This document shows positions 4,082 through 7,692 of a stretch of DNA of 25,374 nt, one piece after another. Positions within the stretch are counted from its first letter, which is position 1; each line of letters begins with the position of its first letter. The stretch is from a virus. Where the stretch lies: IMG/VR virus record IMGVR_UViG_3300042860_001014, positions 1 through 25,374 of that record. The stretch is one strand, 5' to 3'. The notes below the pieces were generated by a model. The model was not told where the DNA came from, made no database searches, and worked only from the letters and a program-made list of their open reading frames with translations. The position numbers were made by a program, and so were the translations under genes.

Positions 4082-5063
4082 CGGCAAGATGATTGGTGAT
4101 GGACTGCCGATGAACTTCGTGTTGAACCACGGCGCATTGGGTGACGTGATCTGTTCGCTGCCGGCAGTGATTGCCGGGCGCGTAGCCGACCCATTTTCCG
4201 TTATCCGGGTGTGGGGACCGTCGTGGCAGCACGAATTGCTGGAGCACCTGCTGAAGCCCTACGGCGAGTTTGAGATCCGCAACTTTGAGGACTTTCCCAA
4301 GACCAAGGCCGAACGGGAAGAACGCAACCCCGGCCATGTGGCATTGAACCAAATGCCGTTCAACACGCACACCCGCAACCGTGTCCACATGGTTGACTAC
4401 GCTTTTGGTTGTCTGCTGGACTCGCGCCCGGAGAACATGCTGGAACGCAGCTACCCTACGCAGGCGCCCTTGGGCAAGCGTCGGTTCGATGAACCTTACG
4501 TGGTGTTCCCGGTAGGGGCTACATCCGACAACAAGCTATTCCGCGCCAGCGTCATGGCACCGGTAATTGAGTGGGTCAACGAGCAAGGCTACGTGCCGGT
4601 GCTGGTCGGCACCAAGACCAGCCACACGCAAGCCGAAGCTGGCGGCGTGCTGACGCCAATCACAATCATTGACGAAGTAGACAAGCTGCCGCCTTCCCTG
4701 CGCGTAGAGTGCATTGATCTGCGGGAGAAAACGACGCTGCTGGAACTACGCGACTTGCTGGGCTACGCGGAAGCGGTGGTTGGCGTTGACGGTGGCACGC
4801 TGCACTTGGCCGGGACGACCGACACCAACATCATCTACGCCATGGGGGCGACGATACCGCGCCACCGGTTCATCGCCCGCAACGGCGACCCAAGCTACAA
4901 GATACGTTACGTCGGCCCGCGTGACTTGGAGTGTACCGGTTGCCAATCGAAGTGGCGCATGAGCAGACATGATTTCCGGAATTGCCCGTACGGCGATTCC
5001 AAGTGCATGGAGCAGATACACTGTGACGATTTCATCAATGGACTGAAGGAGCTTGGACTATGA
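4071..5063 (+). CDS. GT9 / heptosyltransferase-like glycosyltransferase
   Basis: A 330-residue protein with the layout of glycosyltransferase family 9 (ADP-heptose:LPS heptosyltransferases), which transfer sugars from nucleotide-sugar donors. The N-terminal domain opens with NHGALGDVICSLP (GALGD at 21-25), matching the family's G-x-LGD motif; the C-terminal domain has the nucleotide-sugar-site pattern VGVDGGTLHLAG (Asp240 to His245) followed by an IIYAMGAT strand. Four cysteines (288, 291, 305, 312) form a CxxC...C...C cluster like the C-terminal cysteines of many GT9 proteins. I prefer ATG 4071 (GGAG six bases upstream) to the in-frame ATG at 4026. It overlaps the Bbp19-like gene before it and the scaffold gene after it (ATGA). 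A sugar transferase inside a head operon is odd; virion, host-surface or DNA glycosylation are all possible. Confidence 0.82.
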   Translation: MYRDGKMIGDGLPMNFVLNHGALGDVICSLPAVIAGRVADPFSVIRVWGPSWQHELLEHLLKPYGEFEIRNFEDFPKTKAEREERNPGHVALNQMPFNTHTRNRVHMVDYAFGCLLDSRPENMLERSYPTQAPLGKRRFDEPYVVFPVGATSDNKLFRASVMAPVIEWVNEQGYVPVLVGTKTSHTQAEAGGVLTPITIIDEVDKLPPSLRVECIDLREKTTLLELRDLLGYAEAVVGVDGGTLHLAGTTDTNIIYAMGATIPRHRFIARNGDPSYKIRYVGPRDLECTGCQSKWRMSRHDFRNCPYGDSKCMEQIHCDDFINGLKELGL

Positions 5064-5905
5064 CCGACACCGCCCCCGCATCTACCCCTGCACCCGCCCC
5101 CGCATCTACCCCTGCGCCTGATGCTGCTGCCCCGTGGCATGGTCTGACCGACCCGGACGCCGCCGCTTACATCTCCAACAAAGGCTGGACCGCGCCGGCG
5201 GACATCGTGAAGTCTTACCAAGGAGTCGAGAAACTGATTGGACGTGACCCGTCAACCCTGATTACCATGCCGCGCATGGACGACCCGGAAGGTGTCAAGT
5301 CCGTGTTTCAGAAGCTGGGCCTGCCCGAGTCGCCGGACAAATATGACATGACTGTTGGCCTGCCGAAAGGCGCCAAGGCGGACGAGGGCTTTGCCAAGAC
5401 CATGCAGAGTATCCTGCACAAGTCAAACGTGACGGACAGCCAGGCCAAGACGCTGGTGGCCGAGTGGAACACCATGCAGACGGCCGCGCGCGAACAGGCA
5501 GCCAAGGACTACGACCTGAACGTGGCGGCCGACAAGCAATCTCTGCTGGACGAATGGCGTGGCGGGCATGACCGGATGATGAACCGGGCCAAGACCGCCG
5601 CCACCACGCTGGGCTTCACGCCGGAATTAATTGACTCCATTGAAAAGAGTCTGGGCTACGCCGGCACCTACAAACTGCTGGCCGAGATGGGCGGCAAGCT
5701 GGGCGAAGACACGCTGGTCACGCCGAACAAGAACACCGACTTCGGCACCACCCTGACCCCGGACGAGGCCAAGAACCAACTGGCGACCGCGCGCAGCGAC
5801 CCGAACCATATCGCCGCGCTGAAGGACAAGAGCCACCCCGGTCACAAGATGGCGCAGGAAAAAGAGAACAAACTTTTTTCCATTATGTACCCGGGCAGTA
5901 AGTGA
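5060..5905 (+). CDS. Probable capsid scaffolding protein
   Basis: A 281-residue, highly charged, probably helical protein directly upstream of the capsid gene, the usual place for the scaffold that directs prohead assembly and is later removed. The N-terminus is a low-complexity Pro/Ala/Thr/Ser stretch made by a DNA repeat, followed by WHGLTDPDAAAYISNKGW and KSYQGVEKLIG, which resemble the N-terminal region of podoviral scaffold/capsid-assembly proteins. Residues from about 95 to 220 are rich in Lys, Glu, Ala and Asp, and the tail is basic (HKMAQEKENK). ATG 5060 overlaps the glycosyltransferase stop as ATGA, with GGAG at 5048-5051. The call rests mainly on position and composition. Confidence 0.75.
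   Translation: MTDTAPASTPAPAPASTPAPDAAAPWHGLTDPDAAAYISNKGWTAPADIVKSYQGVEKLIGRDPSTLITMPRMDDPEGVKSVFQKLGLPESPDKYDMTVGLPKGAKADEGFAKTMQSILHKSNVTDSQAKTLVAEWNTMQTAAREQAAKDYDLNVAADKQSLLDEWRGGHDRMMNRAKTAATTLGFTPELIDSIEKSLGYAGTYKLLAEMGGKLGEDTLVTPNKNTDFGTTLTPDEAKNQLATARSDPNHIAALKDKSHPGHKMAQEKENKLFSIMYPGSK
5071..5115 (+). repeat. Tandem direct repeat in scaffold N-terminus
   Basis: A 21-base sequence at 5071-5091 recurs exactly at 5095-5115 (period 24, in frame). It encodes the repeated PASTPAPA segment near the scaffold N-terminus. It looks like a recent slippage duplication in a disordered linker. Confidence 0.85.
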
Positions 5906-6081
5906 TGGACGAACGCGAAATCAAACTGCGGTGCATCGAAGCCGCAGCCAGAACCCCTACGGTCCACCTCAAAGGGCAGGCCGAAGGGGTAGTTGAAATT
6001 GCAAGTGCTTGGTTTAATTGGATTATTTCTTCACCGAAAGGGGAGCCTGTTAAGCCTTTGGGGTTGCCTGGGAAAAAGTAG
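5905..6081 (+). CDS. 58-aa hypothetical protein upstream of capsid gene
   Basis: A short ORF from ATG 5905, overlapping the scaffold stop as TGATG, to TAG 6079-6081. It begins MDEREIKLRCIEAAAR, contains a V-VEIASAWFNWI segment and ends in a Pro/Gly/Lys tail, which looks like a small helical protein with an aromatic patch rather than random translation. The coupling to the scaffold gene and coding-like composition support it. I believe similar small ORFs occur at this place in related podoviruses, but I cannot confirm that here. Function unknown. Confidence 0.65.
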   Translation: MDEREIKLRCIEAAARTPTVHLKGQAEGVVEIASAWFNWIISSPKGEPVKPLGLPGKK

Positions 6082-6090
6082 CGTGCAGTG

Positions 6091-6099
6091 TGGTAATAT
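6091..6099 (+). promoter_or_regulatory. Candidate extended -10 promoter for the capsid unit
   Basis: TGG (6091-6093) followed by TAATAT (6094-6099) forms an extended -10 element; no convincing -35 is seen at the right distance. The predicted start is near 6106, at the beginning of the candidate structured leader. Together with the terminator at 7660-7692 it would define a two-gene capsid transcript. Inferred from sequence only. Confidence 0.4.
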
Positions 6100-6105
6100 G
6101 GAGTT

Positions 6106-6239
6106 GTAGGGAAGTCGCGCGGACAAGGTGAAAGCCCCCGCAGTGTGATTGACCTGCATGGCCCCCGTAAGGGACAAGCCGGCGAAGTCCAGCCAGATTG
6201 GACAAACTGACTTGAAATTAAACACTTACGGAGTAAATC
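6106..6239 (+). ncRNA. Candidate structured 5' leader RNA of the capsid gene
   Basis: This non-coding stretch of about 134 bases lies between the 58-aa ORF and the capsid start. Hand folding gives three hairpins: 6119-6122 with 6138-6141 (GCGG/CCGC), with an inner GG/CC pairing; 6160-6162 with 6178-6180 enclosing CCC-GUAA-GGG (6164-6173), a GNRA-type tetraloop; and 6187-6191 with 6199-6203 (GUCCA/UGGAC). AAGUC at 6112-6116 can pair with GACUU at 6209-6213, closing all three into a junction, and a second AAGUC at 6185-6189 could compete for the same partner. Pieces (UAGGGAA, GGUGAAAGCC, CCCGCAGUGUGA) recall the cobalamin riboswitch core, but the match is incomplete. The ribosome site GGAG is at 6230-6233. 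The role (translation control, RNA stability, or riboswitch-like) is unproven. Confidence 0.35.
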
Positions 6240-7133
6240 ATGCCGGATAACATCACAGTTGCCTCAGTACAGCAGTACAAGGCCAACGTAGAGCTTCTGC
6301 TGCAACAAACCGATTCCCGCCTTGCCGGTGCCGTCACCGTTGGCAGTTACGTTGGCAAAGCCGCCAGCACTGTCGAACAGTTTGGTTCCGCTACGGCTGT
6401 CCAGCGTACCAGCCGTCACGCTGACACCCCGCTGCTCGATCTCTCGCAAGACAAGCGTTGGGTTTTCCCGACCGACTACGAATGGGCCTCGCTGGTTGAC
6501 AAGCAAGACCAACTGCGCGCCATCGTTGAACTGACCAGCCCGTATGCCATGGCCGGCGCCGCTTCAATGCAGCGTGTCAAGGATGACATCATCCTGGCCG
6601 CGATCTTCGGCACCAACTACACCGGCGAGAACGGTACGACCTCTGAGTCGTTCGGCACGCTGGGTTCCGGCACCTACGACGTGGGCGTCAACACGGGCGG
6701 CACCGCTTCGGCGCTGAACGTGGCCAAGCTGCAGTCGGCCATTCAGAAGCTGATGCTGGCGAACAAGGGCGAACTGAACGAGTCCGTCTACGGCGCCATC
6801 TCCAGCTACGAGCACGATGCGCTGCTGAAGGAAATGCAAGTCGTCAACAAGGACTACGGTAACAGCGCAGTTCTGGTGGACGGCAAAGTCAAGCGGTTCA
6901 TGGGTGTGGACTTCATCATCACTGAGCGCCTGACCATTACCTCCGGCAACCGCCTGATCCCGCTGTGGCTCAAGTCAGGTATGCATCTGGGCATGTGGGA
7001 CGAAGTTCGGGCTGAGATTGGCCCGCGCGCAGACAAGGGTTACGCAACCCAGGTCTACCTCGCCATGACCCTCGGCGCAACCCGCACGCAACTGGGCAAG
7101 CAAATCCGCATCCAGTGCGACGACCAGATCTAA
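6240..7133 (+). CDS. Major capsid protein
   Basis: A 297-residue protein building the icosahedral shell. The sequence matches the podoviral Phage_capsid_2-type family: N-terminal NITVASVQQYKANVELLLQQ, the RTSRHADTPL segment, WVFPTDYEWASLVDKQDQLR (about residues 78-97), and a conserved aromatic region KSGMHLGMWDEVRAEIGPRADKGY before the C-terminus. An HK97-like fold is expected from the family. ATG 6240 has GGAG six bases upstream. It sits directly after the scaffold and the leader region and before a probable decoration protein, the usual order. The clear coding signature and its own candidate promoter and terminator suit a protein needed in hundreds of copies. Confidence 0.93.
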   Translation: MPDNITVASVQQYKANVELLLQQTDSRLAGAVTVGSYVGKAASTVEQFGSATAVQRTSRHADTPLLDLSQDKRWVFPTDYEWASLVDKQDQLRAIVELTSPYAMAGAASMQRVKDDIILAAIFGTNYTGENGTTSESFGTLGSGTYDVGVNTGGTASALNVAKLQSAIQKLMLANKGELNESVYGAISSYEHDALLKEMQVVNKDYGNSAVLVDGKVKRFMGVDFIITERLTITSGNRLIPLWLKSGMHLGMWDEVRAEIGPRADKGYATQVYLAMTLGATRTQLGKQIRIQCDDQI

Positions 7134-7649: not shown

Positions 7650-7659
7650 CGGCGACTGA

Positions 7660-7692
7660 CCTCGGGGGCTTCGGCCCTCGGGGTTCCTTTTT
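7660..7692 (+). terminator. Rho-independent terminator after capsid genes
   Basis: A 10-bp stem (7660-7669 with 7674-7683, including two G-U pairs) is capped by a C(UUCG)G tetraloop and followed by TTCCTTTTT (7684-7692). This is a classical strong intrinsic terminator. It lies between the probable decoration protein and the next ORF, in the 55-base gap. It probably attenuates or stops the capsid transcript, so downstream genes need read-through or another promoter. Confidence 0.9.

Follow-up and report, generated by a model that had tools for sequence, protein, structure and literature searches.

A repeated bulged-hairpin RNA leader, most likely a protein-binding switch, precedes the major capsid gene of uncultured phages

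We found that the major capsid gene of an uncultured podovirus-like phage is preceded by a structured, probably sensing, RNA leader with its own promoter. Tests of conservation, covariation and SD complementarity strongly support its control of capsid synthesis. These tests compare sequences, and they identify a promoter, two motif hairpins, a pseudoknot, complementarity to the SD region, two mutually exclusive pairings and an association with capsid genes. Our data suggest that the leader, apparently unrecorded in Rfam, is most likely a new class of cis-regulatory phage RNA, a protein-binding translational switch. The original prediction had proposed a capsid-controlling leader with kinship to cobalamin riboswitches; the control stands and the kinship does not.

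The window (record IMGVR_UViG_3300042860_001014, 25,374 nt, the whole stretch of DNA analysed) encodes a terminase, a head-tail adaptor, a scaffold/protease-like gene, a 58-aa ORF and the major capsid gene. The features of the locus are:

5060-5905: scaffold/protease-like gene
5905-6081: 58-aa ORF, read off the sequence, overlapping the scaffold stop codon
6091-6099, plus strand: extended -10 promoter TGnTAnnnT (TGGTAATAT), predicted transcript start about 6106
6106-6157, plus strand: P1, a long stem (6106-6118 with 6142-6157) that carries hairpin A, with partner-specific arms
6119-6141, plus strand: motif hairpin A, GCGG-A-CAA-GG...CC-C-CCGC, with an A·C mismatch and a CAA bulge, the bulge on the 5' strand
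6160-6180, plus strand: motif hairpin B (P4/P5), GGC-C-CCC-GUAA-GGG-A-CAA-GCC, the bulge on the 3' strand at 6175-6177
6165-6171, plus strand: anti-SD strand CCGUAAG, the 5' arm and loop of hairpin B, pairing with 6225-6231 (CUUACGG)
6181-6203, plus strand: H-type pseudoknot, S1 6181-6183 with 6192-6194 and S2 6187-6190 with 6200-6203
6225-6233, plus strand: SD region CUUACGGAG, with SD GGAG at 6230-6233, sequestered by 6165-6171 in the alternative state
6240-7133, plus strand: major capsid protein gene (PHROG 3437, E 6e-61; PF19821, E 2e-67)
7658-7690, plus strand: intrinsic terminator (12-bp stem, UUCG loop, T-run) 3' of the gene downstream of the capsid gene

A candidate -10 had been proposed at 6091-6099, and we found an extended -10 at that exact place. 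TGnTAnnnT is present in all 36 distinct close-relative leaders, compared to 5% in shuffled sequence, and its spacing to hairpin A is 16-22 nt in 34 of them, the other two being parse offsets. The leader (6106-6239) begins 7 nt 3' of this element. Beyond the close family the extended -10 is not enriched (9 of 111). Since an extended -10 lies before the capsid gene and a strong terminator after the next gene, the two bound a capsid transcription unit. Within 5850-6400 there are 0 terminator-like sites, and a transcription-attenuation leader was rejected for this reason. A small ORF also occupies the place equivalent to 5905-6081 in MW202898, HTVC010P and HTVC028P. MW202898 additionally carries a second 'major capsid protein' annotation (25459-26031) at the tail tubular/adaptor position, which is probably a mis-annotation.

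The leader has a folding energy of -42.4 kcal/mol compared to -34.1 kcal/mol for shuffles (z -2.52; 2 of 200 shuffles as good), in agreement with the hairpins originally predicted here, the one with the GUAA loop being hairpin B. When leaders from 80 viral loci, each encoding a capsid relative, were aligned, invariant GGACA, CCCC and GGACAAGCC blocks were separated by variable loops. Counted on alignment A4, the structure model has 92% of cells paired, and nine pairs carry double changes compared to 3.7 in shuffles and far fewer with slid partners. P1 arms match their own partners better than permuted ones (z -11.5, 0 of 2000 permutations, with leader relatedness partly remaining in the test), and near-perfect covarying versions of P1 occur in two relatives (L041 and L043). 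A lack of compensatory changes in homologous leaders had been named in advance as evidence against a regulatory element; on the contrary, such changes are abundant. Comparison across relatives therefore indicates that the leader is a real, strongly conserved folded RNA. The long-range AAGUC/GACUU stem once thought to enclose the hairpins (6112-6116 with 6209-6213) was dropped, since it occurs in 3 of 33 relatives, does not covary and is not partner-specific: AAGUC at 6112-6116 and at 6185-6189 gave z +0.6 and -0.5 with GACUU at 6209-6213.

The pseudoknot can form after hairpin B in 36 of 36 close relatives and is limited to this close family. Its layout is GGC, a stem of approximately 5 bp, usually A, GCC, 4-5 nt and the stem again. 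S1 has two compensated variants, in which GGC/GCC becomes AGC/GCT or GGU/ACC, and S2 is partner-specific (z -9.1, leader relatedness again partly remaining).

Hairpins A and B share one motif: an outer helix, an A opposite a single C, a 3-nt YAA bulge and an inner helix, i.e., GAYAA opposite CC. No other strong copy occurs in the 25 kb window. In 145 non-redundant capsid leaders we enumerated de novo all combinations of X plus a 3-nt bulge opposite Y and found A-CAA-C 118 times and A-UAA-C 56 times, with 0.4 expected for each; A·C with a CAA or UAA bulge thus occurs 174 times compared to 0.8 in shuffles. Hairpin A has an invariant GGACA core and covarying stems. In a set of 115 B and 103 A hairpins, several flanking positions show almost the full range of Watson-Crick pairs, the G-C pair 5' of AYAA is nearly fixed and the apical loops vary in length and sequence, leaving the internal A·C and YAA bulge as the conserved part. 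The majority of strong motifs (192 of 232) lie within 150 nt before a capsid start, 12 are on the opposite strand, and hairpin B is mostly 36-60 nt 5' of capsid starts in diverse phages.

Variation within the motif may say something about its partner. The last bulge base of hairpin A is changed from A to C (ACAC) in L014, L029, L042 and L085, and in L014 and L029 hairpin B is altered as well (AUAC), paired changes hinting that both hairpins have the same partner. In leaders of alphaproteobacterial prophages with the same capsid family, where numbers are small and some leaders are near-duplicates, a variant in which G·U replaces A·C is enriched (10 compared to 0.3 expected) and A·C itself is found 9 times compared to 0.4, while A-U in this position is not enriched (1 compared to 0.7). 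The two wobbles, A·C and G·U, are alike in geometry. Since G·U exchanges with A·C, this suggests, within the limits of few and partly near-duplicate leaders, selection on the shape of the mismatch pair. The alphaproteobacterial capsid-gene leaders L361, L362, L478, L482, L484 and L486 have either the G·U variant loop (of the GGGUCC...GGGCAACCC type) or divergent copies.

We found that the 5' arm and loop of hairpin B are also complementary to the SD region. Own partners pair at -12.9 kcal/mol compared to -9.3 kcal/mol for permuted ones (z -9.0, 0 of 2000 permutations, leader relatedness partly remaining), while control segments in the same test were flat (z +1.7 and 0.0). The specificity persists when one leader is kept per distinct hairpin (z -8.3) and, less strongly, in a set of 48 diverse leaders (z -5.9). 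Some of these diverse leaders (e.g., L243, L244 and L310) show weak complementarity, so not every member need share the same output. In L007 the SD pairing comprises 12 bp and spans the whole of hairpin B; because it runs through the entire hairpin, the two pairings cannot coexist. The SD-paired fold is favoured in 33 of 33 relatives, by 4.7-26.8 kcal/mol (mean 14), in energies that omit the pseudoknot, ligand and co-transcriptional folding. Hairpin B covaries and the SD pairing is partner-specific; since these are two conserved pairings unable to coexist, one of them hiding the SD, the leader has the signature of a translational switch. A competing fold had been foreseen and does exist, but it is formed by 6165-6171 with 6225-6231 and not by the second AAGUC at 6185-6189.

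Masking of the SD also bears on whether the leader is regulated at all. It might instead be a constitutive 5' stabiliser or a ribosome standby or enhancer site that gives high, unregulated capsid output, as the T7 gene 10 leader does, with the SD complementarity merely setting the level. The capsid is the most abundant late protein, the RNA starts with a stable stem adjoining the promoter and the unit closes with a strong terminator, all of which would suit such a role. A stabiliser, however, needs neither an invariant A·C and YAA bulge in two to four copies nor maintained complementarity that masks its own SD, and we consider this explanation unlikely.

We therefore lean, with some reserve, toward reading the leader as a translational switch that acts in cis on an mRNA dedicated to the capsid. 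This mRNA would begin at about 6106, transcribed from the extended -10 inside the late operon, and hairpins A and B and the pseudoknot would be made first and could fold before the SD is transcribed. With hairpin B intact the SD would be free and capsid synthesis ON; with its 5' arm and loop paired to the SD region, capsid synthesis would be OFF. A trans-acting factor would recognise the GAYAA/CC bulge in both hairpins and stabilise the hairpin state, and the presence of two to four copies in a leader points to a protein that is multivalent or dimeric. We infer that the leader acts on translation and in which direction, and also that there is a factor, which would be, in order of preference, a phage assembly protein (scaffold or capsid), a conserved host RNA-binding or ribosomal protein, or a small molecule.

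We asked whether known RNA families account for the leader. No Rfam 15 family matches the window or ten further loci (L071, L229, L241, L245, L278, L286, L308, L332, L346 and L374); a scan of 5900-6400 returned nothing at E up to 10, and the window has no match at gathering score. A missing Rfam match, which the original prediction had also listed as counting against it, is thus what we found. Likeness to a cobalamin riboswitch consists of the short strings GGUGAAAGCC and CCCGCAGUGUGA and an SD-sequestering output; the strings are present as predicted, but they are part of the two YAA-bulge hairpins. The cobalamin riboswitch (RF00174, RF01689) was rejected, with no covariance-model match and a gene context of capsid or scaffold: the downstream genes identified are structural, and none is cobalamin-related. 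Some other metabolite riboswitch, with a small-molecule aptamer in the bulged hairpins and pseudoknot, appears quite unlikely. The two-state anatomy with an SD-sequestering expression platform would fit it, and tandem copies exist among known riboswitches, but besides the missing Rfam match, the strictly shared part is only a tiny bulge motif, the pseudoknot stops at the close family and the genes found to be regulated are structural rather than metabolic. CsrA-type binding was dropped on inspection: ACAAGG occurs in hairpin A only, and B has ACAAGCC with the flanking G's paired.

Protein-binding RNAs offer closer comparisons. MS2/PP7 coat-protein operators are small bulged hairpins bound by a protein that controls translation of a virion gene. 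The leader resembles them in the idea of a small bulged hairpin as protein-recognised translation control, with binding here conjectural; it differs in belonging to a dsDNA tailed phage and in having an internal A·C and YAA bulge. An MS2-type operator proper, in which a conserved hairpin-loop sequence is recognised, was rejected since the apical loops vary freely. HK022 put RNAs are antiterminators in which a phage promoter is directly followed by two adjacent hairpins, and this placement is the one feature that leaders of the close family share with them. The leader differs in its SD complementarity, downstream terminator and capsid-start spacing. A put-like transcriptional element, making RNA polymerase terminator-resistant through its two hairpins, is very unlikely: the hairpins do stand immediately 3' of the promoter, but a strong terminator follows one gene later, most diverse members lack a recognisable adjacent promoter, hairpin B keeps a distance of approximately 36-60 nt from the capsid start codon and the SD complementarity would be left unexplained.

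Mu-gpT-DE RNA is linked to Mu gpT, a phage major head gene, and like the present leader it is a conserved candidate RNA associated with such a gene. It is an existing family (RF03012; PMC7657543), with no covariance-model match here, and belongs to other phages and other capsid genes. The S6:S18 rpsF leader, a ribosomal-protein autogenous leader, works in a similar way: the gene for an assembly component is preceded by a structure in its mRNA, and the protein bound there controls translation (PMC4647458). The phage leader, with its putative binding protein, differs in repeating its bulge motif within one leader and in lying in a capsid mRNA. Our literature search found no description of the element, though it could be an unnamed entry in a large candidate list. 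Such lists of structured RNAs were reportedly compiled for bacteria in 2017 and for viruses and phages in 2023.

We searched for the motif more broadly with a context-blind DNA pattern for hairpin B, which recovered dozens of new contigs; a pattern scan (GCGGACAAGG...CCCCGC) mixed real copies with chance coding matches, and alignment A1 was too diverse for use in locus searches. The capsids of the new contigs are 22-49% identical to that of the window, and those checked belong to PF19821/PHROG 3437. Among leaders fetched via the capsid protein alone, 38 of 48 have the motif within 150 nt compared to 1 of 786 control windows, a rate valid for the motif-bearing part of the family because the query alignment was built from motif-bearing phages. 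Within that part, the motif is, as far as sequences tell, a general feature of PF19821 capsid genes. Three or four tandem motif hairpins, spaced approximately 40-50 nt apart, precede the capsid start in L278 (1822-1990), L286, L288 and L308 (8713-8827), with the coordinates of L278 and L308 given on the capsid-coding strand. This breadth bears on the suggestion that the conservation is non-regulatory, i.e., a DNA-level packaging or replication signal or recent common descent without function. The element is short, intergenic and fixed in its place within the head-gene cluster, which would suit such an origin, but the motif is strand-specific, its stems covary through nearly all pair types, its loop lengths vary freely and it persists between capsids so divergent, making this exceedingly improbable.

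The motif also occurs in a lineage with a PHROG 14242 capsid (L345-L350, L352 and L355), where up to four GAYAA-bulge hairpins surround the scaffold-gene start (e.g., L346, 1655-1807), two of them in the leader and the other two within the scaffold coding sequence; sister phages L351, L353, L354 and L356 are without motif copies. Conservation of the coding copies may be partly protein-level, because they coincide with a repeated AP-x-GQA peptide. Since the motif stands before PF19821 capsids and also in phages whose capsid family is apparently unrelated, it would have spread horizontally or evolved twice for the same factor. For the same reason the PF19821 capsid itself is mildly disfavoured as the sensed factor, and a host or shared assembly factor mildly favoured.

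Cultured phages are distant, the best reaching 54% identity to one motif-bearing capsid. A nucleotide search with the leader found no match among them, and pelagiphage HTVC010P and its relatives have no strong motif match; Vibrio phage 1.182.O (MG592548) has a B-like hairpin 64 nt 5' of its capsid start. A prophage of Dongia mobilis shares the capsid family and has at best a divergent version of the element. Across 190 Alphaproteobacteria genomes the pattern was not enriched (8 genomes with a match; the reversed-pattern control matched more), so there is no sign of a host mRNA family in Alphaproteobacteria.

To our knowledge, the matching of capsid and scaffold output to assembly in dsDNA phages is understood for only a few model phages. 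The element described here accompanies the capsid gene in a large group of uncultured phages, and its base-level predictions (bulge, anti-SD strand and SD) make the question directly testable and may point to a new RNA-protein pair. It is conceivable, although we hold this tentatively, that GAYAA opposite CC, with A·C exchanging with G·U, is a widespread, previously unnamed RNA recognition module that lets tailed dsDNA phages adjust the synthesis of capsid or scaffold in response to either an assembly component or some common host factor.
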